Made by a program: the position numbers and the translations under genes. The notes below the pieces were generated by a model that was not told the origin of the DNA, did not search any database, and saw only the letters and a program-made list of their open reading frames with translations. A stretch of DNA of 55,709 nucleotides from Clostridiaceae bacterium (GTDB lineage Bacteria; Bacillota; Clostridia; Clostridiales; Clostridiaceae), in NCBI GenBank assembly GCA_014380625.1, contig JACMJL010000117.1:1-55709 (forward strand), written 5' to 3'. Below are positions 2,767 to 15,481 of this stretch, piece after piece (positions within the stretch are counted from its first letter, which is position 1; each line of letters starts with the position of its first letter).

Positions 2767-3534
2767 ATGAATACTTCAGAAAAACTTCATGAAATAAAAA
2801 ATCTACTTTCTAATAAAGGAGACACTAGGTATGAAGATTATCTAGATAAGGTCTTCAATTGTGTGGACTGTGAATTAGATACTTTTGTATATCAACAGTT
2901 AGAACTTGTACTTACGCAGTTTTGGAATAATAAGAATAATTTAGATGAGACCATGGAAAAAATAGAAGACTTAATTAGTAGCCGCAATGGAAAGAAGTAC
3001 CAAGAAAAATTGGGAATGGTAAGATATGAATTCGATAAGGCTAAATTCATTAAAGGCAATAAATATATTCTTTATATTATTTGCATACCGTTACTACTCT
3101 GCGTTTTGAGAATGCTATACCTTGAATTATATATGGGGGTTAGCAGGACAGTTAGCCAGTGGTTAATTGGATTCATAATTGTAATAGTTTTTATGTTGTT
3201 TATTCCATACCTATTTACTTATAATGCAAAAAAGGCTAAGTATAAAACAAATTTTATTGAAATTAAAGATAATATATGTATATATAACAAGATGCAGTCT
3301 GCACAATTTTTGACTGGTGTGGAGAGAAGAATGTACTACTTAAATAAAGTTTCAAAAATAGATTCGAATTCTAAATATGTGTTCCTATATGGAGAGATTG
3401 AGGTTAAAAAACATACAGAGGGATCAAAAAAAGTTGAACCTTATAAGACAATAAACAAATTGAAAATTCCTAATTATTATAAGAATATTGATGAAGTTAT
3501 TACCTTTATTTCTTTGAAAATCGTTAAGGACTAA
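2767..3534 (+). CDS. Tandem paralog 1 of immunity-like membrane protein (255 aa)
   Basis: First of three near-identical tandem genes; start ATG preceded by GTGAGGAGG 11 nt after the effector-like gene, so probably co-transcribed with it. The protein has a soluble acidic N-terminal helical domain (about 1-95, containing the invariant TQFWNNKNNLD stretch), a two-helix membrane hairpin (about 100-120 and 133-155), then a soluble basic domain beginning at TYNAKKAKYKTN and ending near KIPNYYK. I do not recognise a named family. Location directly after a T7SS effector-like gene, membrane anchoring and tandem duplication fit immunity proteins, as described for multi-copy membrane immunity genes beside staphylococcal T7SS toxin loci; that role is inferred. 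Confidence 0.75.
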   Translation: MNTSEKLHEIKNLLSNKGDTRYEDYLDKVFNCVDCELDTFVYQQLELVLTQFWNNKNNLDETMEKIEDLISSRNGKKYQEKLGMVRYEFDKAKFIKGNKYILYIICIPLLLCVLRMLYLELYMGVSRTVSQWLIGFIIVIVFMLFIPYLFTYNAKKAKYKTNFIEIKDNICIYNKMQSAQFLTGVERRMYYLNKVSKIDSNSKYVFLYGEIEVKKHTEGSKKVEPYKTINKLKIPNYYKNIDEVITFISLKIVKD

Positions 3535-3586: not shown

Positions 3587-4354
3587 ATGAATACTTCAGA
3601 AAAACTTCATGAAATAAAAAATCTGCTTTCCGATAAAGGAGACACTAGGTATGAAGATTATCTAGATAAGGTCTTCAATTGTATGGACTGTGAATTCGAT
3701 ACTTTTGTATATCAACAACTAGAACTTGTACTTACACAGTTTTGGAATAATAAGAATAATTTAGATGAGACCATGGAAAAAATAGAAGACTTAATTAGTA
3801 GCCACAATGGAAAGAAGTACCAAGAAAGATTAGGAATGGTAAGGTATGAATTCGATAGGAATAAGTTCTATAAAAACAACAAATATATTCTTTATATTAT
3901 TTGTATACCGTTAATGCTCTGCGTCCTGAGAATGATATATATCAAATTATATATGGGGGATAGATCCACATTTAGTTCGTGGCTAATTCCATTCATAATT
4001 GTAATAGTTAGCACTATGTTTATTCCATATCTTTTTACTTACAATGCAAAAAAGGCTAAGTATAAAACAAATTTTATTGAAATTAAAAATAATATTTGTA
4101 TATATGATAAGGCACAGTCTGCATCTATAGAAGCAGGGTTGGAGAGAAGAATGTACTACTTAAATAAAGTTTCAAAAATAGATTCGAATTCTAAATATGT
4201 GTTCCTATATGGAGAGATTGAGGTTATAAAACATACAGAGGGATCAAAAAAAGTTGAACCTTATAAGACAATAAACAAATTGAAAATTCCTAATTATTAT
4301 AAGAATATTGATGAAGTTATTACCTTTATTTCTTCGAAAATCATTAAAGACTAA
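3587..4354 (+). CDS. Tandem paralog 2 of immunity-like membrane protein (255 aa)
   Basis: Same length and architecture as the preceding copy and nearly identical in both soluble domains. Differences concentrate in the membrane hairpin and its loop: copy 1 has ELYMGVSRTVSQW where this copy has KLYMGDRSTFSSW, and a short stretch after the second helix changes from MQSAQFLTG to AQSASIEAG. SD GTGAGGAAG lies 8 nt before the ATG. The upstream spacer (about 3560-3586) closely matches the spacer before copy 3, showing that the duplication unit is gene plus leader. Likely an immunity variant that recognises a different effector allele. Confidence 0.75.
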   Translation: MNTSEKLHEIKNLLSDKGDTRYEDYLDKVFNCMDCEFDTFVYQQLELVLTQFWNNKNNLDETMEKIEDLISSHNGKKYQERLGMVRYEFDRNKFYKNNKYILYIICIPLMLCVLRMIYIKLYMGDRSTFSSWLIPFIIVIVSTMFIPYLFTYNAKKAKYKTNFIEIKNNICIYDKAQSASIEAGLERRMYYLNKVSKIDSNSKYVFLYGEIEVIKHTEGSKKVEPYKTINKLKIPNYYKNIDEVITFISSKIIKD

Positions 4355-4407: not shown

Positions 4408-5175
4408 ATGAATACTTCTGAAAAACTTCATGAAATAAAAAATCTACTTTCAGATAAAGGAGATACTTTATATGAAGATTATCTAGATGACGTATACGAT
4501 TATATTGACTGTAAATTCAATGCTTTTGTATATCAGCAGTTAGAACTTGTACTTACACAGTTTTGGAATAATAAGAATAATTTAGATGTGACCATGGAAA
4601 AAATAGAAGACTTAATTAGCAGTCCTAATGGAAGGGAATACCAACGAAAATTGGGAATGGTAAGGTATGAATTCGATGGGGATAAGTTCTATAAAAACAA
4701 CAAATATATTCTTTATATTATTCCTATACCCGCAATAATCTCCAATTTAAGAATGATATATTATCAGTTATCTATAGGGATTAACATGACATTTGGCGAT
4801 TTGCTAATTGATCTCGGAACAACAATAGTTTTTTTATTGCTATTACCTTACCTATTTACTTACAATGCAAAAAAAGCTAAGTATAAAACAAATTTTTTTG
4901 AAATTAAAGATAACATATGTATATATAATAAGGCACAGTCTGCATCTATTAAAGCAGGGTTGGAGAGACGAATTTATTACTTGAATAAAGTTTCAAAAAT
5001 AGATTCGAATTCTAAATATGTGTGCCTATATGGAGAAATTGAGGTAAAAAAACATACAGAGGGATCAAAAAAAGTTGAACCTTATAAGACAATAGACAAA
5101 TTGAAAATTCCTAATTACTATAAGGATATTGATGAAGTTATTACCTTTATTGCTTCGAAAACCGTTAAAAACTAA
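4408..5175 (+). CDS. Tandem paralog 3 of immunity-like membrane protein (255 aa)
   Basis: Third and most diverged copy. The N-terminal domain differs at about ten positions (for example LYEDYLDDVYDYIDC) and the membrane hairpin is largely rewritten (IPIPAIISNLRMIYYQL; DLLIDLGTTIVFLLLL), whereas the C-terminal soluble domain remains almost unchanged. SD GTGAGGATG precedes the ATG. A strong hairpin at 5252-5294 closes the array. The gradient of divergence (1 and 2 close, 3 further away) suggests at least two successive duplications. No enzymatic motifs are visible. Confidence 0.75.
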   Translation: MNTSEKLHEIKNLLSDKGDTLYEDYLDDVYDYIDCKFNAFVYQQLELVLTQFWNNKNNLDVTMEKIEDLISSPNGREYQRKLGMVRYEFDGDKFYKNNKYILYIIPIPAIISNLRMIYYQLSIGINMTFGDLLIDLGTTIVFLLLLPYLFTYNAKKAKYKTNFFEIKDNICIYNKAQSASIKAGLERRIYYLNKVSKIDSNSKYVCLYGEIEVKKHTEGSKKVEPYKTIDKLKIPNYYKDIDEVITFIASKTVKN

Positions 5176-5251: not shown

Positions 5252-5310
5252 ACTAAGGAAGTCATCTCTAAGGGGAAGAAATGACTTCCTTAGTTCATTA
5301 AATATTTTTT
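5252..5310 (+). terminator. Terminator closing the immunity-like array
   Basis: A perfect 14-bp stem: ACTAAGGAAGTCAT (5252-5265) pairs with ATGACTTCCTTAGT (5281-5294), loop 15 nt, with a T6 run further on at 5305-5310. It separates the T7SS-like locus from the radical SAM operon. Confidence 0.75.
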
Positions 5311-5369: not shown

Positions 5370-5378
5370 TGGTACAAT
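5370..5378 (+). promoter_or_regulatory. Extended -10 promoter of the radical SAM operon
   Basis: TGGTACAAT is a TGn-extended -10 element, 41 nt before the first start codon of the operon. The matching -35 position holds only a weak TTTCTA. It is the only good promoter I see between the array terminator and 5419, so it probably drives the whole 10-kb operon. Confidence 0.5.
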
Positions 5379-5418: not shown

Positions 5419-6126
5419 ATGATTAATTTAACTGGAGAAATTTTAGAAATAAAAGAATTAAGCAATGAAGATATAGATGTAATGTATAAATTAATGGATG
5501 AATTCTATGACAATATGACCTTTGAGGATTTTGGAAATGACTTAAAAGAAAAGGACTATTGCATTGTATTAAGAGACAATCTTAAATTTATAAAAGGCTT
5601 TTCAACACAAAAAATTATAGAAGTGTGTGTAAAGGATAAGAAAATACATGGTGTTTTCTCAGGAGATACTATCATACATAAGGATTATTGGGGAAGTTTT
5701 GAATTACATAAGGTATTTGCTAAATTTTTCTTTGATTATGCAGAGAAATATGAGGAGTTTTATTGGTTTTTAATTTCTAAAGGATACAAGACCTATAAGA
5801 TGTTACCAACATTTTTTAAGAAATCCTATCCTAACTATAGAGAGGAAACACCTAAATATATTAAAGATATTATTAATGCTTTTGGCAAGACCGCATATTC
5901 TGAGGACTTTGATGAAGCCTCAGGGGTAATAAAATATAAGCATGTAAAGGACAAGCTAAAAAAGGGTGTAGCAGATATCGATGATAAAAAACTAAAAGAT
6001 AAGGACATAAAATTTTTCGTGGAAATTAACCCAGCCTATTTAAAGGGCAATGATTTAGTATGTTTAGCAAAGATCCAAAAGGATAACTTAAAACCAACTG
6101 TAAAACGACTTTTTTATGGGCGGTAA
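5419..6126 (+). CDS. GNAT-like acyltransferase, first gene of radical SAM operon (235 aa)
   Basis: SD AAAGGAGGAA sits before the ATG. The protein looks like a divergent GNAT (N-acetyltransferase) fold: an N-terminal helix pair, a central strand/turn segment VFSGDTIIHKDYWGS where GNAT proteins bind the CoA pyrophosphate, and the later FLISKGYKTYKML strand-helix. A basic C-terminal extension of about 90 residues follows. GNAT enzymes transfer acyl groups from CoA or carrier proteins to amines or hydroxyls. Its stop lies 4 nt before the chosen start of the GH3-type gene, so the two are translationally linked. The substrate is unknown; the assignment rests on fold-like features and context, not on a complete motif. 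Confidence 0.55.
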   Translation: MINLTGEILEIKELSNEDIDVMYKLMDEFYDNMTFEDFGNDLKEKDYCIVLRDNLKFIKGFSTQKIIEVCVKDKKIHGVFSGDTIIHKDYWGSFELHKVFAKFFFDYAEKYEEFYWFLISKGYKTYKMLPTFFKKSYPNYREETPKYIKDIINAFGKTAYSEDFDEASGVIKYKHVKDKLKKGVADIDDKKLKDKDIKFFVEINPAYLKGNDLVCLAKIQKDNLKPTVKRLFYGR

Positions 6127-6130
6127 TTCT

Positions 6131-7660
6131 ATGATAGAAAAATTATATTGTTATTTAGTTAACTCCCTATGCTGTGCCTTATACAGAAGGGAATATAGGA
6201 AATATATTAATAATGAGAGCATTGGAGAAGTTCAAAAAGAAAAGTTATTTAAAATTATTAAAGATAATAGTGAAACGGACTATGGCTTGAAATATGGATT
6301 TAAGGATATTAAAACTGTTGAAGAGTTTCAAGAAAAGGTACCCTTTACAGACTATGAGGATTACTTACCGTACATTGAAGAAATAAAAAAGGGTAAAAAA
6401 AATATATTAACAAGTGAAGATGTATTATTATTAGAAAAAACTAGTGGCTCAGTATCAAGTAGTAAACTAATTCCTTATACTGACTCCTTAAAGAGAGAAT
6501 TTCAATGTGGAATAAAACCTTGGGTCTATAATCTATATACAAGTATCCCTAGGGTAAAATGGGGGAAAAGTTATTGGTCGGTTACTCCCATAGAAACTGA
6601 AAAGGAATATACAGAAGGCGGGATACCCATTGGATTTGAAGAGGATAGTGAATATTTTGGAAAGATAGAAAAGCTGTTAATGAATAAAATTTTTGTAACT
6701 CCAAAGGATATTGCAAAAGAAAGTGATATAGAAAGCTTTCAGTTTAAAACAATGCAGGCTCTATTAAAGTGTAAAAATCTAACACTTATATCAATATGGA
6801 ATCCAACCTTTTTCCTTCTATTACTGGAATATTTAGATGGAAATAGTGAAAATCTACTTTTGTCACTTAAAAAGAGTAGAAGAGAAGAAATATTTCAATA
6901 TATAAAAGCAAAAGAATACACAAAAATTTGGCCTAACTTAAAGGTTATTAGTTGTTGGATGGATGGGAACGCTAAGGTCTATGGAGAAAGATTACAAGAA
7001 GTTTTTAACGGGGTTATCATTCAGTCTAAAGGTCTTCTTGCAACAGAAGGGTTTGTTTCCTTTTCCTTTACTAAGGAAAAAGGCTCTAGATTAAGTTATA
7101 ATTCGCATTTTTTTGAATTCATTTCTTTGAAGGATGGAGAAGTATATTTAGCTGAAGAGCTGAAAGAAAATCAGAGATATGAAGTTGTCTTAACCACAAG
7201 TGGAGGGTTATATAGATATAAAATTAAGGATGTTATAGAAGTTTGTGGTTTTTCCAAGGAAACCCCAAGAATTATTTTTACTGGCAGAAGGGACAAGGTA
7301 TCTGACCTTTTTGGTGAAAAATTGAATGAAGACTTTATTAAAAACATGATAGAAGATTTGAATATAAAAAAGGATTTTTTTATGATTGCCCCAGAAGAAG
7401 ATAGATATGTATTATACCTAAAGACTAAAGAAGAATTGCCAGAAATAGATGAACTATTTAGAAGGAATTTTCATTATGATTATTGCAGGAAACTTGGACA
7501 ACTTAAAAAACTAAGAATATTTTTATTACAGGGAAATCCAGAAAAAGAGTATATAGATGAATGTATTAAAAGAGGACAAAGAATGGGAGATGTAAAACCA
7601 ATAATTCTATCCTTAAAGGGTGGATGGGATAAGGTTTTTACAGGACATTACCTGGACTGA
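6131..7660 (+). CDS. GH3-family acyl-acid amide synthetase (509 aa)
   Basis: The ATG at 6131 (product begins MIEKLYCYLV) is preferred because GGGCGG lies 7 nt upstream; an earlier in-frame ATG at 6116 has no SD. The protein matches the GH3 branch of the ANL adenylating superfamily: N-terminal helices, ATP-binding loop LEKTSGSVSSSKLIPYT (about 101-117), a GLLATEGFVSF acceptor/adenylate motif (about 300), and the YRYKIKDVIEVCGF...TGRRDKVS hinge leading to a short C-terminal domain. GH3 enzymes adenylate a carboxylic acid and join it to an amine, best known from plant auxin and jasmonate conjugation; bacterial homologues occur in biosynthetic loci. Here it probably activates or conjugates the acid intermediate of the operon's pathway. 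Full family length, no visible damage. Confidence 0.85.
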   Translation: MIEKLYCYLVNSLCCALYRREYRKYINNESIGEVQKEKLFKIIKDNSETDYGLKYGFKDIKTVEEFQEKVPFTDYEDYLPYIEEIKKGKKNILTSEDVLLLEKTSGSVSSSKLIPYTDSLKREFQCGIKPWVYNLYTSIPRVKWGKSYWSVTPIETEKEYTEGGIPIGFEEDSEYFGKIEKLLMNKIFVTPKDIAKESDIESFQFKTMQALLKCKNLTLISIWNPTFFLLLLEYLDGNSENLLLSLKKSRREEIFQYIKAKEYTKIWPNLKVISCWMDGNAKVYGERLQEVFNGVIIQSKGLLATEGFVSFSFTKEKGSRLSYNSHFFEFISLKDGEVYLAEELKENQRYEVVLTTSGGLYRYKIKDVIEVCGFSKETPRIIFTGRRDKVSDLFGEKLNEDFIKNMIEDLNIKKDFFMIAPEEDRYVLYLKTKEELPEIDELFRRNFHYDYCRKLGQLKKLRIFLLQGNPEKEYIDECIKRGQRMGDVKPIILSLKGGWDKVFTGHYLD

Positions 7661-7686
7661 TTTAATTTAGAAAGGACTGAAATAAA

Positions 7687-9030
7687 ATGAAAATAGCTTT
7701 ATTAGCTCCAGCAGGAGCAATGCATAGATATAATGGAATGTTCCATAAGAATTTACACTATGCACCCATCACTCTAGCCTTACTTGCGGCATTAGTTCCT
7801 GAAGAGTTTCATGCGGAGGTGAAAATCTATGATGAGACGGCGGAAGCAATTCCACTTGACTTAGATGTGGATATTATAGGAATTACCTGTATAACTGGGA
7901 CTGCCTCAAGATGTTATAAATTTGCTGATTATTTTAGAAAAAAAGGTATAAAAGTAATTTTGGGTGGAGTTCATCCTTCACTAATGCCTGAGGAAGCTAT
8001 GGAACATGCGGATAGTGTTATTGTGGGTCTTGGCGAAGATAATTTTCCAAAGGCCTTAAGGGACTTTAATGAAAATAAAATGCAAAGGATTTACTATCAG
8101 GATAAATGTACTCATATCGAAAATAGACCTATGCCAAGAAAAGACTTACTAAATAAAAAGAAATACATAACCTTAAATACCGTTGAGGCAATCCGAGGTT
8201 GTCATCATACCTGTACCTTTTGTGCCTACCCTGTAGCCTTTGGAACTAAGGTGTATAAGAGAACCGTAGAGGACATTATTGAAGAGATAAAAACTTTAAA
8301 AGGAAAGTTAGTAATATTTCCAGATGTTAATTTGATTTCGGATGTCACCTTTGCTAAGGAATTATTTACAGCAATGATTCCCTTAAAGAAATGGTGGTTT
8401 GGACTTACCACCACAGTAATAGGAGAAGATGAAGAATTATTAGATGTTTTTCAAAAGAGTGGTTGCAAAGGTATATTGCTTGGATTTGAATCAGTTAATC
8501 AAGAAACACAAAAAAATATTAATAAGGGAGTAAACAAGGTTAATCAATATAAAGAACTAATGAATAAATTACACCGCCATGGAATTATGGCAATGGGATG
8601 TTTTGCCTTTGGTAGTGATGAAGATAAAAAAGATGTATTTAAAAGAACCGTTGATTTGTGTAATGAAGCAAAAATAGATCTACCACGGTTTGCAATTATA
8701 ACACCCTTTCCAAGTACTCCTTTTTACAAAGAATTAGAGGCGCAAAAAAGGATTGTTGAAAAAGATTGGGCTATGTATGATGTGGAACATGTTGTTTACA
8801 ACCCAAACCATATGACAAAGGAAGAACTTCAAGAAGGCATTTCCTGGGCTTGGAAGGAAACTTATTCTATAAAGAATATACTTAAACGTATTGATCTAAG
8901 GAACCTTTGGAAAATCAATATTTTATATTCCATATATTTTGGCGCCAACATTGGATACAGAAAATATGCAAAGGCCTTTGAAGCTTATGATAAAGATATA
9001 ATGGCAGATAATAGCGATATACCACAATGA
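7687..9030 (+). CDS. Cobalamin-binding radical SAM enzyme 1 (447 aa)
   Basis: An N-terminal B12-binding Rossmann-like domain (about 1-140, with VILGGVHPSLMPEEA typical of this class) is followed by a radical SAM barrel with the [4Fe-4S] cysteines C172, C176 and C179 in GCHHTCTFC. FPDVNLIS, GILLGFES and a C-terminal DUF4070-like tail follow, as in BchE- and HpnJ-like class-B enzymes. The classical DxHxxG B12 motif is absent, which is common in this class. Such enzymes use methylcobalamin and SAM to methylate unactivated carbons or to make C-C or ring bonds. SD AAAGGA before the ATG; the stop overlaps the next start (ATGA). It groups with enzyme 4 (YAPITLALLAALVP; DVEHVVYNPNHMT). Confidence 0.9.
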   Translation: MKIALLAPAGAMHRYNGMFHKNLHYAPITLALLAALVPEEFHAEVKIYDETAEAIPLDLDVDIIGITCITGTASRCYKFADYFRKKGIKVILGGVHPSLMPEEAMEHADSVIVGLGEDNFPKALRDFNENKMQRIYYQDKCTHIENRPMPRKDLLNKKKYITLNTVEAIRGCHHTCTFCAYPVAFGTKVYKRTVEDIIEEIKTLKGKLVIFPDVNLISDVTFAKELFTAMIPLKKWWFGLTTTVIGEDEELLDVFQKSGCKGILLGFESVNQETQKNINKGVNKVNQYKELMNKLHRHGIMAMGCFAFGSDEDKKDVFKRTVDLCNEAKIDLPRFAIITPFPSTPFYKELEAQKRIVEKDWAMYDVEHVVYNPNHMTKEELQEGISWAWKETYSIKNILKRIDLRNLWKINILYSIYFGANIGYRKYAKAFEAYDKDIMADNSDIPQ

Positions 9031-10355
9031 AGATAGCATTTATTAAACCAAGTATGTTTGGGGAAATAGCAAAGGATGCAATGATGCCCTTAGTATTTTC
9101 AATTATAAAGCCATTAACCCCTGAAGATGTAGATATAGTTTTTTATGATGAGAGAATAGAAAGTATACCCACAAAATTAGATGTGGATGTAATAGCCATG
9201 ACCGTTGAAACTTTTTCTGCTAAAAGAGCATATAATCTTGCCGTAAAATATAAAAAGGAAAATAAAACAATTATCATGGGGGGCTTCCACCCAACTATGC
9301 TACCAGAGGAAAGCCTAAAGTATGCAGATTCGGTAATTATAGGGGAAGCAGAGGATACTTGGACAACAGTTATCAAGGATTTAAAAAATAATAATTTACA
9401 GAAAAAATATATTAGTGGAAATGATTTTGATTTATCTAAAATAAAATACGATTATTCTGTTTTTAAGGGGAAAAAGTACAATAAGATAGGCCTACTCCAA
9501 TTTAGCAGGGGCTGTAAATTTAATTGCAATTTCTGCTCAATACATGCCTTTTATAAGGATGGAATTAGATGCAAACCCATAGAAACAATTATAGATGAAC
9601 TAAAAAATATGAAAGAAAAACATGTGTTTTTTATAGATGATAATTTGTTTTCAAATGAGGTAGCAGCAAAGAAATTATTTGAGGCCTTAGTTCCTCTTAA
9701 GAAAAAATGGTTTTGTCAAATCAGTATTGATATTGCTCAAAATAAAGAATTACTAAGGCTAATGAAAAAAAGCGGATGTTTGTTAGTTATAATCGGTTTT
9801 GAATCCTTAAATGTTGAAAACTTAAAACAGATGGGCAAGGGTGCAAATATAAAATATAGTGATTATGAAAAAGTAATCCATAATATTTATGAAGCAGGTA
9901 TTATGATTTATGGAACCTTTGTGGTAGGTTACGATTATGATACTGCCTTAAGTACAAAAAAACTAGTTGATTTTGCCATAGATAATAAATTTGCCATAGC
10001 TAATTTTAACCCACTTATGCCTATGCCAGGGACTAAGTTGTATGAGAGATTAGATAAGGAAAAGGGATTAATCTATAAAAAGTGGTGGCTAAATCCTGAA
10101 TATAGGTACGGAGATGCAATGTTAACGCCAAAGGGAATGACTGAACAGGAACTCATGGAGAGTTGTAAAAATGCCAGATTTACCTTTAATACTTATAAAA
10201 ATATCTTTAAGAGATTGTTAAACTTTAAAGCCAATGGAAGAAATTTTGAAAATGTTACTATCTTTTTAATAACAAATTTAATTTCTCGATTTGAGATTAA
10301 AGCAAAACAAGGGAAAAGGCTGGGGGGAACTGTAAATGAAGATCACATTAATTAA
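9027..10355 (+). CDS. Cobalamin-binding radical SAM enzyme 2 (442 aa)
   Basis: Same architecture as its neighbours: B12-binding domain (about 1-130, IIMGGFHPTMLPEES), radical SAM cluster cysteines C163, C167 and C170 in GCKFNCNFC, then FFIDDNLFS, VIIGFESL and a DUF4070-like C-terminus. It carries the signature AMTVETFSAKRAY shared only with enzymes 3 and 5, and the WWLNPEYR segment in the tail, which marks subgroup B of the operon. Start overlaps the previous stop by 4 nt and its own 3' end overlaps the next gene by 20 nt, so translation is coupled. Reaction unknown; methylation or C-C bond formation on a shared intermediate is plausible. Confidence 0.88.
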   Translation: MKIAFIKPSMFGEIAKDAMMPLVFSIIKPLTPEDVDIVFYDERIESIPTKLDVDVIAMTVETFSAKRAYNLAVKYKKENKTIIMGGFHPTMLPEESLKYADSVIIGEAEDTWTTVIKDLKNNNLQKKYISGNDFDLSKIKYDYSVFKGKKYNKIGLLQFSRGCKFNCNFCSIHAFYKDGIRCKPIETIIDELKNMKEKHVFFIDDNLFSNEVAAKKLFEALVPLKKKWFCQISIDIAQNKELLRLMKKSGCLLVIIGFESLNVENLKQMGKGANIKYSDYEKVIHNIYEAGIMIYGTFVVGYDYDTALSTKKLVDFAIDNKFAIANFNPLMPMPGTKLYERLDKEKGLIYKKWWLNPEYRYGDAMLTPKGMTEQELMESCKNARFTFNTYKNIFKRLLNFKANGRNFENVTIFLITNLISRFEIKAKQGKRLGGTVNEDHIN

Positions 10356-11682
10356 ACCCAATATAGGTAGAAGAGAACATAGTATGTATGTGGATGAAAG
10401 TAGAATGGAACCCTTACAATTAGGGGTACTTGCTGCACTTACCCCAAGGGATATTGAGTTGGTAATGTATGATGATAGAATGGAACAAATACCCTTTGAT
10501 GAACCAACAGATCTAGTAGGAATAACAGTTGAAACCTTTACCGCTAGGAGAGCCTATGAGATTAGTGAAGAGTATAGGAAAAGAGGGGTAAAGGTATTAA
10601 TGGGTGGTATGCATGTTAAATTAATACCTGAAGAAGTAAAAGAACACTGTGACAGCATAATGATAGGCGATGCAGAAGATAAATGGGCCGAGATGATTGA
10701 AGATTTGAGAAAAGGTTACTTAAAAGAAGAGTATGTCTGTAATCCTGTTTTAGTTCCTCAGGATGGAATTATCACTAGAAGAGATATTTTTGAAGGAAAA
10801 GCATATTTACCTATTACGCTTTTACAATTTAGCAGAGGCTGTAGGTTTAGCTGCCATTATTGTGCCTCAAGTGTTTACTTTAACAAACACCATTATTGTA
10901 GAAATGTTGATGAAGTAATTAAAGAAATTAAAGATCAAAAGCGGAAAATATTATTTTTTGTGGATGACAATATAGTTGGTGACAAGGAAAAAGCAAAAGA
11001 GTTATTTAGGGCGTTAATACCACTAAAGGTAAAATGGGTGAGCCAAGCAAGTATTGATATGTTAGAGGACAAAGAATTAATGGAGCTAATGATGAAGAGC
11101 GGATGCTTAGGACATGTTATAGGCTTTGAATCTATAAAAATAGAAAATATAACTTTGATGAAAAAAGGTGTCAATAAAACCTATGTGGAAAACGATTATA
11201 GAGAAGCCATTAAAGAACTTAGAAATTGGGGCTTACAAACCTGGGCAGCCTTTACTGTAGGACATGACAACGATACCTTGACTAGTATTAAAGAAACCTA
11301 CAAATTTGCCTTGGAAAATAAGTTTACCTTTGCAGCTTATAATATTTTAATGCCTTATCCAGGTACTCCTTTATATAATCAATTAAAAGAGGAAGGAAGG
11401 CTATTATATGATGAAAAGTGGTGGCTACATCCGGAATATAGATTTAACTATGCTTCCTTTCTCCCCAAGAATATGACAGCAGATGAACTAACAGAAGTTT
11501 CCTTTTGGTGCAGAAAAAATTACAATTCTATGAAATCAATTATATACAGGGCTTTCGATTTAAAAACTAATATGAGAAGCCCCTATAGATTTGCCACCTA
11601 CTGTGTTTATAATCCAGTATTTAAAAAAGAAGTTTTTAGAAAGCAAGGCATGGAATTTGGGTTTAAGGATGTGAAAAAGTAA
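10336..11682 (+). CDS. Cobalamin-binding radical SAM enzyme 3 (448 aa)
   Basis: B12-binding domain (VLMGGMHVKLIPEEV, about 87-101) and radical SAM cysteines C169, C173 and C176 in GCRFSCHYC; then FFVDDNIVG, HVIGFESI and a DUF4070-like tail with WWLHPEYR. The GITVETFTARRAY stretch places it in subgroup B with enzymes 2 and 5. SD GGGGGAA lies inside the end of the preceding gene. The last base of its TAA is the first base of the next ATG. Like the other four it has no signal peptide or membrane helix and should be cytosolic. Intact at normal family length. Confidence 0.88.
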   Translation: MKITLIKPNIGRREHSMYVDESRMEPLQLGVLAALTPRDIELVMYDDRMEQIPFDEPTDLVGITVETFTARRAYEISEEYRKRGVKVLMGGMHVKLIPEEVKEHCDSIMIGDAEDKWAEMIEDLRKGYLKEEYVCNPVLVPQDGIITRRDIFEGKAYLPITLLQFSRGCRFSCHYCASSVYFNKHHYCRNVDEVIKEIKDQKRKILFFVDDNIVGDKEKAKELFRALIPLKVKWVSQASIDMLEDKELMELMMKSGCLGHVIGFESIKIENITLMKKGVNKTYVENDYREAIKELRNWGLQTWAAFTVGHDNDTLTSIKETYKFALENKFTFAAYNILMPYPGTPLYNQLKEEGRLLYDEKWWLHPEYRFNYASFLPKNMTADELTEVSFWCRKNYNSMKSIIYRAFDLKTNMRSPYRFATYCVYNPVFKKEVFRKQGMEFGFKDVKK

Positions 11683-12989
11683 TGAAAATTCTGTTGGTGA
11701 TGCCCTGGGAAAAAGGTTATAAAAGTTATAGAGATATATTTTCAAAGCTTAATGCCTATGCACCATTAACCTTGCCAACCCTTGCTGGCATTATACCAAA
11801 GGATATGAATATTGAAGTGGTCGCTTGTGATGAGATGATAGAAAATGTAGAGAAATATTATAAAAATCATTATGATATAGTGATGATTGCATTTATAACT
11901 TCCTCTAGTTTGAGGGCTTACAAAATAGCAAAGGAATTTAAGACAAGGGGCTCATACATAGTATTTGGTGGTTATCATACTACTTTCATGCCTGAAGAAG
12001 CAAAAGAGCATGGGGATACAATAATTATTGGAGAAGCTGAAGTATCAATTCCAATTTTCTTAAAGGATTATTTAAATAAGGAACCAAAGGGAATTTATAA
12101 TTACCCTGATGTAAAAGAGAGTGATAGAAAAAGACCAGATAGAACTGTTTTAAAAAAACATAAGTATTCAGGGGTACCTACAATAATTGCAAATAAAGGT
12201 TGTTCAAATAATTGCGAATTTTGTGCTATTAGTAGAATGTCAAATCAGGTGCCAAGATGTATTAATGATGTAATCGAAGAAATGAAAAGCTTAAAGAAAA
12301 AGCTATTTATCTTTTTTGATCCTAACTTTTTTGGCAACAGGCAGTATGCAATTAATTTGATGACTGAGATAGCAAAGTTAAAAGTAAAATGGATGGGGGC
12401 AGCTACTATAAATAGCGCCTTTGATGAAGAGATAATGGCATTAGCCGAAAAGAGTGGCTGTATAGGTCTGTTAGTAGGAATAGAGTCTATGAATAAACAA
12501 TCCCTAGATAGTGTAAATAAAAAGTTTGTAGATCCAAATAAGTGTAAGGAAGCTATTTCAATAATGCAAAAACACGGTATTAGTGTTAACTGTTGCTTTG
12601 TTTTAGGCTTTGATACAGATACAGAAGAGGAATTAATGTCCTTACCTAAACAGGTAGAATATCTAAATCTTAACTTTGTAAGATATTTCATCTTAACTCC
12701 AGGACCTAATTCATCTCTATTTAATAGGCTTGAAGCGGAGGGTAGAATACTTACAAAAGATTGGAGTAAATACAATCAAAATGAGGTAGTCTTTACACCT
12801 AAAAATATGTCAAAGGAAAAACTAGAAGAAATCTATAAATATGTATGGAAAGAAAGTTTTAGAATAGGGAATATATTTAGAAGAGCAAGAAATATGCAAA
12901 ATGCAAATTTATATAAAAAGTTTTTGATATTCACTTTAAATGTGGGTTTTAAATTTGTAGGAACCGGTGAATATAAGGAGGCAAACTAA
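11682..12989 (+). CDS. Cobalamin-binding radical SAM enzyme 4 (435 aa)
   Basis: B12-binding domain (YIVFGGYHTTFMPEEA) and radical SAM cysteines C164, C168 and C171 in GCSNNCEFC; FFDPNFFG replaces the usual acidic DDN motif, and LLVGIESM follows. The N-terminus (YAPLTLPTLAGIIP) and tail (YNQNEVVFTPKNMS; VWKESFRIGNIF) align with enzyme 1 rather than 2, 3 and 5, defining subgroup A. It lacks the WW segment of subgroup B. SD AAGGATGTG precedes the ATG. Its different active-site neighbourhood suggests a step chemically distinct from that of subgroup B. Confidence 0.88.
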   Translation: MKILLVMPWEKGYKSYRDIFSKLNAYAPLTLPTLAGIIPKDMNIEVVACDEMIENVEKYYKNHYDIVMIAFITSSSLRAYKIAKEFKTRGSYIVFGGYHTTFMPEEAKEHGDTIIIGEAEVSIPIFLKDYLNKEPKGIYNYPDVKESDRKRPDRTVLKKHKYSGVPTIIANKGCSNNCEFCAISRMSNQVPRCINDVIEEMKSLKKKLFIFFDPNFFGNRQYAINLMTEIAKLKVKWMGAATINSAFDEEIMALAEKSGCIGLLVGIESMNKQSLDSVNKKFVDPNKCKEAISIMQKHGISVNCCFVLGFDTDTEEELMSLPKQVEYLNLNFVRYFILTPGPNSSLFNRLEAEGRILTKDWSKYNQNEVVFTPKNMSKEKLEEIYKYVWKESFRIGNIFRRARNMQNANLYKKFLIFTLNVGFKFVGTGEYKEAN

Positions 12990-12990
12990 A

Positions 12991-14331
12991 ATGAAAATAA
13001 CATTTATATTACCTGCCATAGGTAAAAAAAGCAATGAAAGATATTTAAAATCCTGGCTTATGGAGCCTCTTACAATTGCAGTATTAAATAAACTTACACC
13101 GAAAAAATATGATAGGGTATTTTTCGATGATAGAGTTGAGAATATTGATTTTGATGAAGACACTGATGTAGTTGCAATTACAGTTGAAACCTATACTGCT
13201 AAAAGAGCTTATGAAATTGCCCGTAGATATAAAGAAAAGGGAAAACTTATTATTATGGGGGGATATCATGCTACTTTAATGCCAGAGGAAGTATTAGAGT
13301 ATGCAGATATTGTGATTAAGGGTAATGCGGAAGAGGTATGGGAACAAGTATTAGAGGATATCGAAAATAAAAATTATAGGGATATCTATGAAGGAAATAC
13401 CTGTTTAGATTATGGACTAGCAGATCCTAGTATTTATAAAGACAAGGTGAAAAAATATCTACCTATATCCTTAATTGAAATTGGTAGAGGTTGCGGTCAC
13501 AAATGTGAATTTTGCGCTATAAATGCCTACTATAAGGGAAATTATAAACATAGGAAAATAGAGCATATTATTGAAGAAATAAAACAAAGTAAAAATAAAG
13601 TTTTTTTCTTTGTGGATGACAGTATTTTTTCTGATAAAGAATTTGCAAAACAACTTTTCATTGAGGTAGCAAAACTTAATATCACCTGGGTTACCCAGGT
13701 CACCCTAGATATCGCTCGGGATGAAGAAGTGTTAAGGCTAATGAAAAAAAGTGGCTGTGAGATGATTTTAATTGGCTTTGAATCAATAGATCCCAAAAAC
13801 TTAGAACAAATGAACAAAACCTGGACCACTAAGTTAGGGGAACGTGATGAACTAGTTGAAAGAATCCATAAAAATGGAATAAGTATTTATGCAAGTTTTG
13901 TATTTGGCTTTGACTTTGATAATGAAGAAAGCTTTAGAAGTAATTTGGAGTTTTGTAAAAAACACCAATTTTATATAACAGCCTTTAATCATCTCCTTGC
14001 ATTTCCAAACACAGAAACCTATGAAAGATTTAAAAGAGAGGGCAGATTGCATAATGAAAGATGGTGGCTTTCAGAAGGCTATACCTTTGGAACCATATCC
14101 TTTAAGCCAAAGTTGATTTCTGATCAGGAATTAAAAAGATTGTGCAAATTGTATAAGACTAAATTTTTTACCTTTGGATCAATTTTTAAAAGGGGAATTA
14201 CACTTTTTAAAAGGACAAAAAACCCTTTAATTAATTTAATTTTTTGGCAGATGAATATTTTGTTTCATTTCGAAGTGGACAAGCGAGCAGGAATCCCAAT
14301 TGGTGAAAACCTTGATGAAAGGAAAAAATAA
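12991..14331 (+). CDS. Cobalamin-binding radical SAM enzyme 5 (446 aa)
   Basis: ATG at 12991 is chosen over an in-frame ATG 24 nt upstream because AAGGAGG lies at the right distance and the product then begins MKITFILPAIG like its paralogs. B12-binding domain (IIMGGYHATLMPEEV), cluster cysteines C168, C172 and C175 in GCGHKCEFC, FFVDDSIFS, ILIGFESI, and a DUF4070-like C-terminus with WWLSEGYTF. AITVETYTAKRAY assigns it to subgroup B. It starts 1 nt after the previous stop and its own stop overlaps the next start, so it is fully embedded in the operon. Intact. Confidence 0.88.
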   Translation: MKITFILPAIGKKSNERYLKSWLMEPLTIAVLNKLTPKKYDRVFFDDRVENIDFDEDTDVVAITVETYTAKRAYEIARRYKEKGKLIIMGGYHATLMPEEVLEYADIVIKGNAEEVWEQVLEDIENKNYRDIYEGNTCLDYGLADPSIYKDKVKKYLPISLIEIGRGCGHKCEFCAINAYYKGNYKHRKIEHIIEEIKQSKNKVFFFVDDSIFSDKEFAKQLFIEVAKLNITWVTQVTLDIARDEEVLRLMKKSGCEMILIGFESIDPKNLEQMNKTWTTKLGERDELVERIHKNGISIYASFVFGFDFDNEESFRSNLEFCKKHQFYITAFNHLLAFPNTETYERFKREGRLHNERWWLSEGYTFGTISFKPKLISDQELKRLCKLYKTKFFTFGSIFKRGITLFKRTKNPLINLIFWQMNILFHFEVDKRAGIPIGENLDERKK

Positions 14332-15401
14332 TGAATAATAAGGTAATCTCTGCCACAACTATGGATGGAGAAGAAATGCTAAAAATAATTGAAGCAAAAT
14401 CTACAAAGGGTAACTTTCAACTTATTTATACTAGAAGACCTAATGCATATGAGTCTTACTTGAGGGAAAGCGATAGGGTAAATATTGGATTAATAAAAGA
14501 TAAGAATGGGAAAATTGCTATGCAAACTACTTGTATAGGGAAGGATTATTATATTAATGGAAAAAAAACAACCATAGGCTATGTAGGCGGAGTTAGGAAG
14601 AGAGAAGATTATGAAGGTTTTTTTAACTGGAAAGATCTTTCGGACTTTGTAAAGGCAAGCAATTATGATATGTATTATTGTTCATTTCTAACTTCTAATG
14701 ATAGTTCAATTGAAATTTTTACAAAGAAGAGAAAAAACTTCCCGCAACTTTTCCCTGTGGATGAGTATACAACTTATATTATTAATCCAAAGGTATTTAA
14801 TAAGGAAAAGAAGCCAATGAATTCAAAATACAATTTTAGATGTATTGAGGAAGTAGATTTAGAAAGGGTATATGCTTTTCTTAATAAAGAAGGGAGTAAA
14901 TATAATTTTGCTCCTGTTGTGGAGGATTTAGAAAAACAATTTACTGATCTTTTACTGAAGGATTGTTTTATCTTAGAGGATGAGGGTGAAATTCTAGCCT
15001 TTGGTGCCTTGTGGAACCAGACTGGTTACAAACAGTATATTGTAACAAAGTATACAGGCTTCCTGAAGATTCTAAGTAAGTTTTCAAGAATTACTGAAAA
15101 ATTAGGCTACATAGCAATTCCTAAGGAAAATGAAATAATGGATTTCCCTATATTATCATTATTTTTTTCCAAGGACCATAATCCAGATTATTATAATTGT
15201 TTTTTGAGTAAAATTTCAGAGGTAATAAAGGAAAACTATAAAATGTTTGTAATTGGTATTAATAACAAGGACCCTAATAATCAGGTATATAAAAAACTAA
15301 GAAGTATAAAGTTTAAAAGTAATATATATTTTGTTCGCTATGATAAAGATATTACATTGGATGAGGGAAAAAATATTCATATTGAATGTGGGTTTTTATA
15401 G
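14331..15401 (+). CDS. GNAT-like acyltransferase, last gene of radical SAM operon (356 aa)
   Basis: SD AAAGGA before the ATG, which overlaps the preceding stop. The protein has the layout of a long GNAT protein: an N-terminal acyltransferase-like half (RVNIGLIKDKNGKIAMQTTC, then GKKTTIGYVGGVRKREDYEG, the position of the CoA-binding loop) and a second, less conserved half with FILEDEGEILAFGALWNQ, another GNAT-like strand pair. It may install an acyl group on the metabolite made by the upstream genes. The TAG stop at 15399-15401 is followed in the same frame by 46 open codons containing a 12-codon tandem repeat (described separately), so the C-terminus may have been longer. Substrate unknown. 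Confidence 0.6.
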   Translation: MNNKVISATTMDGEEMLKIIEAKSTKGNFQLIYTRRPNAYESYLRESDRVNIGLIKDKNGKIAMQTTCIGKDYYINGKKTTIGYVGGVRKREDYEGFFNWKDLSDFVKASNYDMYYCSFLTSNDSSIEIFTKKRKNFPQLFPVDEYTTYIINPKVFNKEKKPMNSKYNFRCIEEVDLERVYAFLNKEGSKYNFAPVVEDLEKQFTDLLLKDCFILEDEGEILAFGALWNQTGYKQYIVTKYTGFLKILSKFSRITEKLGYIAIPKENEIMDFPILSLFFSKDHNPDYYNCFLSKISEVIKENYKMFVIGINNKDPNNQVYKKLRSIKFKSNIYFVRYDKDITLDEGKNIHIECGFL

Positions 15402-15416
15402 AATATTATCCATGCA

Positions 15417-15481
15417 GGAAAATATGTCATCAATGATTATAGACTAAATGAGGGAAAATATGTCATCAATGATTATAGACT
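15417..15481 (+). repeat. Direct repeat, 29 bp twice with 36-bp period
   Basis: GGAAAATATGTCATCAATG and the ten following bases occur at 15417-15445 and again, identically, at 15453-15481. The period is 36 bp (12 codons). In the frame of the preceding gene, the copies encode GKYVINDYRL twice, and a diverged relative (DEGKNIHIECG) forms the annotated C-terminus of that gene. The open frame runs to a TGA at 15540-15542. Confidence 0.85.

Follow-up and report, generated by a model that had tools for sequence, protein, structure and literature searches.

A conserved gene cluster was analyzed in a 55,709-nucleotide stretch of contig JACMJL010000117.1 from a Clostridiaceae bacterium (assembly GCA_014380625.1), called the window throughout. 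Eight open reading frames (ORFs), AT1, GH3, R1-R5 and AT2, lie on the same strand at 5419-15401; all are open and together they form one compact operon. An earlier note on this DNA had described five intact B12-binding radical S-adenosylmethionine (SAM) genes in a row, with CxxxCxxC motifs and tiny gaps or overlaps, next to a GH3-type enzyme and two GNAT-like genes. ORF calls, Pfam and a motif scan agree on the radical SAM genes, and a PF03321 match confirms the GH3-type enzyme. Lengths below are in amino acids (aa), and counts refer to the 80 related loci described in the next paragraph.

5419..6126, forward strand: AT1, single-domain protein of predicted GNAT fold, 235 aa
6131..7660, forward strand: GH3-family acyl-adenylate/amide synthetase, 509 aa from the ATG, with PF03321 (1.1e-49), PF23571 (3.4e-20) and adenylation-type motifs
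7687..9030, forward strand: R1, B12-binding radical SAM protein, core member, ortholog group in 67/80 loci
9027..10355, forward strand: R2, B12-binding radical SAM protein of the accessory module, 45/80 loci
10336..11682, forward strand: R3, B12-binding radical SAM protein, the most conserved of the five, 44/80 loci
11682..12989, forward strand: R4, B12-binding radical SAM protein of the accessory module with a DUF4070 match, 30/80 loci
12991..14331, forward strand: R5, B12-binding radical SAM protein, core member, R5 clade in 52/80 loci
14331..15401, forward strand: AT2, tandem GNAT with a predicted N-myristoyltransferase (NMT) fold and a frozen C-terminal Leu

The GH3 ORF opens at 6116, and the ATG at 6131, which matches the 509-aa database form P0001, is the likely start. 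With this start, neighboring genes overlap by no more than 20 bases or are separated by no more than 26. An alignment of 28 GH3 proteins was used to find 361 GH3-encoding stretches in titled genome records, and the best 80 were analyzed; a single-sequence GH3 scan of the same genome contigs found nothing. Presence counts take all ORFs at each locus, which avoids spurious antisense ORFs hiding real genes. Among these 80 loci, AT1 is present in 74 and AT2 in 68, followed by R1, R5, R2, R3 and R4 with the counts given above. The core AT1-GH3-R1-R5-AT2, accepting an unplaced radical SAM gene in lieu of R5, occurs in 60/80 loci from seven phyla. All eight genes occur together in 24 loci, and all 24 share the single order R4-R2-R3-AT1-GH3-R1-R5-AT2. 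The window order differs by a rearrangement that places R2-R3-R4 between R1 and R5. Gaps between neighboring genes are 60 bases or less in 383 of 421 cases. Forty-four loci have full context, defined as at least 5.5 kb before and at least 5 kb behind GH3; AT1 is present in 44 of them, AT2 in 43 and R1 in 40. The neighborhood of GH3 contains two or more B12 radical SAM genes in 41 of these loci, three or more in 34, five in 17 and none in one (L077). The co-occurrence of GH3 with three or more such genes in other genomes, on which the earlier note had staked its proposal, is therefore borne out.

Phyla were assigned by hand from record titles. The core five genes were found in 47/58 Bacillota loci, 2/2 Deferribacterota, 2/2 Desulfobacterota, 4/8 Chloroflexota, 2/2 Planctomycetota, 1/1 Nitrospirota, 1/1 Acidobacteriota and 1/3 unassigned loci. 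They are absent from the single Pseudomonadota, Bacteroidota and Patescibacteria loci; the Pseudomonadota locus has GH3, AT1, AT2 and radical SAM genes without R1. Most records are metagenome bins, so the phyla with a single locus rest on binning. Cultured carriers include Alkaliphilus serpentinus LacT and Ruminococcus flavefaciens 007c. The same genes recur in a fixed order across dozens of genomes, and the operon is therefore a conserved system whose recurrence is far beyond chance.

Co-occurrence was also scored by genome. Among 291 genomes of the class, GH3 (E 1e-60), R3 (E 1e-110) and R1 (E 1e-110) each match the same three genomes on the same contigs, and the three include the window's genome. 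The R3 match in genome G132 has 41% identity and sits at the R5 position. GH3 matches were found in 3/58 genomes of the order of genome G159 and in 5/398 genomes of the phylum. R1 at E 1e-90 matches 30/398 phylum genomes; the six at 49% identity or higher are the five GH3 genomes and G538. R1 paralogs with 36-42% identity account for 24 further genomes, and in the 8/24 inspected the paralog stands without other system genes nearby and gave no clue. The positives largely overlap the genomes of the 80-locus set, and the information added by this comparison is the negative set. AT2 was found in 8/8 genomes tested, all picked for carrying R1 or GH3; its frame is split in two in G565, and AT2 and GH3 lie on different contigs in G489 and G639.

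The five radical SAM proteins are distinct. R1-R5 have the sequence features of a class-B architecture, with an N-terminal B12-binding domain, a radical SAM domain and CxxxCxxC. The Radical_SAM Pfam domain scores above cut-off in all five and the B12-binding domain in all but R3, where it reaches 30.7 bits, just below the cut-off of 32.1. CxxxCxxC is present in every ortholog-group member of the first tree (65 R1, 43 R2, 44 R3, 27 R4 and 63 R5 proteins). The earlier note had linked these genes to DUF4070, which holds for R4; the other four do not pass that cut-off. In the radical SAM tree each window gene belongs to a separate clade, to which no locus contributes more than one member (supports 0.949 to 1.0), and the clade sizes equal the locus counts listed above. 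Eighteen sequences fall outside the clades. Fourteen loci have a full-length B12 radical SAM protein outside the five clades, mostly occupying the R5 place, and 11 loci hold radical SAM ORFs too short or too long for the tree. Pairwise identity among R1-R5 in the window is 30-41%, compared to a median of 70% between R3 and its own orthologs in the first gene set, and 194/448 R3 positions are conserved at 97% or more across 44 proteins. Judged from their sequences, R1-R5 are five orthologs and not recent duplicates. A separate locus in the window's genome (L095 3707-10394, contig G000:C133) carries three B12 radical SAM genes together with genes for a SAM methyltransferase, a GNAT of family PF13480 and a protein of 363 aa that has no Pfam match.

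Named relatives of the radical SAM proteins are distant. HpnJ, HpnR, TIGR04072 and BchE, which NCBIfam associates by name with hopanoids, ladder-type lipids and bacteriochlorophyll, share the two-domain architecture and are among the best-scoring NCBIfam relatives. R1-R5 differ in scoring 41 to 102 bits against cut-offs of 360 to 650, and in being five different radical SAM proteins that share an operon with GH3 and GNATs. With PhpK included, no named B12 radical SAM equivalog in this set is reached by any of the five. Sequence matches of R1 in the PDB are weak and indicate superfamily-level similarity only: the apramycin enzyme (1.1e-9), CysS (1.6e-5) and tryptophan-C2-methyltransferase (7.5e-5). 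The first and last of these are presumably AprD4 and TsrM. CysS, TsrM and AprD4 belong to other pathways.

The window GH3 protein matches the N-terminal, central and C-terminal GH3 Pfam domains with 169.8, 72.4 and 23.6 bits against cut-offs of 23.6 each, which the C-terminal domain just reaches. Within the ortholog group, what we take to be adenylation motif I is present in a recognizable form in 68/76 members and what we take to be motif III in 75/76; a strict search for TEG finds it in 34/76. The solved structures nearest by sequence are plant GH3 enzymes. The window's genome has a second GH3 copy of 388 aa with 52% identity (G000:C191:4582-5739; L002 1480-2646). Its C-terminus is cut short and, by eye, motifs I and II are altered, and no radical SAM tag was found in the surrounding 12 kb.

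The closest precedent for a bacterial GH3 is OlsH of Singulisphaera acidiphila, which makes N-acyl ornithine (PMC12493201). The OlsH/OlsI pathway is alike in having a bacterial GH3 in a small operon, where ATP-dependent amide formation starts an amino-lipid. That operon differs in encoding an α/β-hydrolase O-acyltransferase and an N-methyltransferase, and the terms 'radical SAM' and 'GNAT' are absent from the main text of the same paper (PMC12493201). The window GH3 scores 54.2 bits with the OlsH lyso-ornithine lipid synthetase model NF052613, compared to an equivalog cut-off of 620.

AT1 and AT2 themselves have no GNAT or other informative Pfam match. Their assignment as GNAT-like, also made in the earlier note, is upheld by their relatives and by predicted structures. 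At E 0.1 or better, Acetyltransf_1 matches 15/35 AT2 relatives (best 9.6e-8) and Acetyltransf_9 matches 5/40 AT1 relatives (best 1.4e-4), and the predicted models of AT1 and AT2 are both GNAT folds. The AT2 model is a tandem GNAT that aligns with NMT end to end, and residue 356, at its very end, is matched to the final residues of yeast (455) and human (496) NMT. AT2 proteins share one C-terminal end column in 59/60 and 80/80 cases, nearly always with Leu. The same measure in the other seven operon families ranges from 4/76 (GH3) to 48/63 (R5). The C-terminus and conservation tables come from the first gene set, in which some genes are missing. The catalytic base of NMT is its own C-terminal carboxylate (PMC4964394, PMC7048800), and a GNAT review calls this catalysis unique to NMT (PMC4964394). 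The predicted model places the fixed C-terminal residue of AT2 at the same active-site position. AT2 differs from eukaryotic NMT in having about 10% identity with it and in being bacterial and part of a biosynthetic operon, and Pfam NMT is not among the 10 families matched by the 35 AT2 members at E 0.1. The description of AT2 as a tandem GNAT with a full-length predicted NMT fold and a frozen C-terminus is new. One related protein, P0199, joins an N-terminal Trp/Tyr-type permease to a C-terminal AT2 C-half and is either an assembly chimera or a deletion fusion.

Genes around the operon were compared across loci. Fatty-acid desaturase or PlsC/AMP-ligase genes are in or near 4/80 clusters. In L094 a desaturase gene sits within the cluster, with the second radical SAM gene on one side and AT2 on the other; in L089 AT1 is followed by genes for an AurF-like protein, a desaturase and a PAP2 protein; a related block with a desaturase is beside R1 on the opposite strand in L076; and an MFS-PlsC-AMP-ligase (MFS-acyltransferase-AMP-ligase) fusion ends three bases before R1 in L081. 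At several Bacillota clusters the flanks held what appear to be unremarkable neighboring genes. A SPASM-type radical SAM gene is in the cluster at L067, L082 and L094, and further, different radical SAM genes adjoin it at L069 and L088. Eleven non-system families recur in at least four loci. Three of these consist of antisense ORFs that shadow system genes, and no family comes within 300 bases of the system at more than three loci. Judged by the members scanned, the two largest families are ABC ATPases, in the flanks of 18 loci, and sensor kinases, in 12; only 1/23 and 3/22, respectively, are within 300 bases. A transporter or regulator family that recurs right beside the clusters was not found. 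The operon encodes no peptide precursor, polyketide synthase or nonribosomal peptide synthetase, as had been noted before, and no recurrent family emerges from the 3926 small ORFs that lie no farther than 2.5 kb away at 78 loci; the largest families reach 3 loci, on the opposite strand. A family of small proteins of 141-168 aa, membrane-like by eye, is near the cluster at four loci of different lineages (L069 17642, L081 9919, L088 14105 and L093 3204), and no Pfam match was found for the members at L088 and L069.

The upstream region of the operon in the window contains a strong hairpin at 5252-5294 and, 3' of it, one candidate promoter element.

5370..5378, forward strand: extended -10-like element TGGTACAAT, a possible operon promoter, seen by eye and absent from the computed site list

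By eye, no consensus -35 was seen for this element. The earlier note had given the operon one promoter and one terminator; the site search found no terminator-like site 3' of AT2. An Rfam scan of the window gave zero matches at the gathering threshold. A direct repeat of about 29 bases lies just 3' of AT2 (about 15417-15481, by eye). Directly upstream of the operon are three tandem 255-aa ORFs (2767-3534, 3587-4354 and 4408-5175) with no Pfam match above cut-off; the first and third copies share 76% identity.

What the analysis itself shows is the gene content with its conservation and co-occurrence, the predicted folds and the frozen C-terminus of AT2. The presence of GH3 and two GNAT proteins suggests chemistry of the amide or acyl type. 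A fatty-acylated amino compound is suggested jointly by the NMT-like fold and C-terminal end of AT2, the lipid-related neighbors and the OlsH precedent, and carbon-centered modification by the radical SAM proteins. The reading that we tentatively prefer, with confidence just short of even, is that the operon's product is an N-acylated lipid of amino-acid type, with predicted cobalamin-dependent radical SAM enzymes remodeling its carbon skeleton. AT2 would use a thioester as the source of a long-chain acyl group for an amine, with its own C-terminal carboxylate as the general base. GH3 would adenylate a carboxylate and couple it to an amine, in the way that OlsH joins fatty acids to ornithine, and AT1 may carry out a further acyl transfer. 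The core carbon chemistry would fall to R1 and R5, which would either methylate unactivated carbons or form C-C bonds or rings; where a lineage has the R2-R3(-R4) module, this would contribute additional steps. Because the operon is not accompanied by any recurrent exporter or regulator, its product would probably stay in the cell envelope. The acyl-amide tailored by class-B radical SAM enzymes that the earlier note had suggested fits the gene conservation, the NMT-type fold and terminus of AT2 and, in a few clusters, the lipid genes.

Several results weigh against a lipid product of the whole operon. The lipid genes at the 4/80 loci include none in Bacillota, where flanks are annotated at few loci only. 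None of the eight operon proteins attains the cut-off of any listed NCBIfam model, which for R1-R5 leaves the reaction type unassigned. In Foldseek, NMT ranks behind a bacterial acetyltransferase (3n7z, E 1.4e-12), which is the top match of AT2, and glucosamine N-acetyltransferase 5kf1 is also among the matches; a long acyl chain for AT2 is not proven because of these acetyltransferases. The C-terminus of R5 is also rather fixed, so fixation alone is no proof of catalysis. L077, a locus with full context, has AT1-GH3 without any other system gene, and L074, L083, L084 and L090, partly on short contigs, have no radical SAM gene. Conversely, genome G538 (96% complete) carries permease-R1-R2-R3-R5-AT2 (L114 1273-9859, G538:C211), headed by a Trp/Tyr-type permease; this stretch lacks both AT1 and GH3, and a search of the whole genome at E 0.001 gave no match to GH3. 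GH3 is therefore not indispensable to the radical SAM part.

The strongest competitor, which we consider somewhat unlikely, is a soluble small metabolite or cofactor-like acyl amide, with GH3 acting on a non-fatty acid, the GNATs transferring short acyl groups and the radical SAM enzymes methylating the core. The plant GH3 enzymes act on soluble acids, the tandem-GNAT acetyltransferases 3n7z and 5kf1 share the AT2 fold, R3 is so conserved that a fixed small substrate is plausible, and the permease precedes the cluster in L114. However, the absence of a recurring exporter or regulator family, the AT2 C-terminus frozen at the NMT position and the desaturase or PlsC/AMP-ligase genes at four clusters all favor the N-acylated lipid. 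That the radical SAM and GH3/GNAT genes are two unrelated neighboring units could explain the G538 cluster and L077, but this arrangement is very improbable; it is largely contradicted by conservation and was rejected on the conserved gene order, given the single order in 24/24 eight-gene loci, the overlapping genes and the same three of 291 genomes.

Two other readings of the radical SAM enzymes were considered. A ribosomal peptide could be modified by NMT-like/GNAT acylation and radical SAM C-methylation, as in fatty-acylated ribosomally synthesized and post-translationally modified peptides (RiPPs). Nostolysamides, for example, are reportedly lanthipeptides acylated on Lys, B12 radical SAM RiPP methylases exist by their NCBIfam family names, and NMT acylates peptide N-termini (PMC7048800). 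This is improbable, since no small-ORF family recurs near the 78 loci and no checked recurrent family stays close to the system in more than three loci, although a precursor gene that is far away or highly diverged could have escaped this search. Slightly less probable again is that the radical SAM enzymes join or cyclize hydrocarbon chains into a membrane-spanning or ring-bearing lipid instead of methylating. In archaea, lipid chains are joined and cyclized by the radical SAM enzymes Tes and GrsAB, and structure models have led to a comparison of bacterial Mss with Tes (PMC11868695, PMC13274423). The extra radical SAM genes beside the L069 and L088 clusters are compatible with such chemistry. 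Against this reading, R1 also matches the methylases CysS and tryptophan-C2-methyltransferase.

No published description of the cluster, and no product assigned to it, was found among literature on GH3/radical SAM, ladderanes, membrane-spanning lipids, ornithine lipids with GH3, NMT/tandem GNAT and B12 radical SAM with GNAT, which covered few subscription papers; the earlier note likewise knew of no described pathway of this composition. Extended to its full breadth, and held with less confidence than the N-acylated lipid itself, the proposal is that these operons may define an unknown, anciently spread class of bacterial amino-lipids, built by GH3 and an NMT-type acyltransferase, after which two to five B12 radical SAM enzymes working in series would C-methylate, cyclize or cross-link the molecule at unactivated carbons. 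If true, this would be an orphan pathway in rumen/gut Ruminococcus, Oscillospiraceae and Lachnospiraceae records, as well as in Deferribacterota, Chloroflexota and other phyla, for a compound class without a description in the literature searched. Five distinct B12 radical SAM enzymes would act on one product, and the AT2 models suggest that a bacterial acyltransferase family shares the unusual C-terminal-carboxylate catalysis of NMT.

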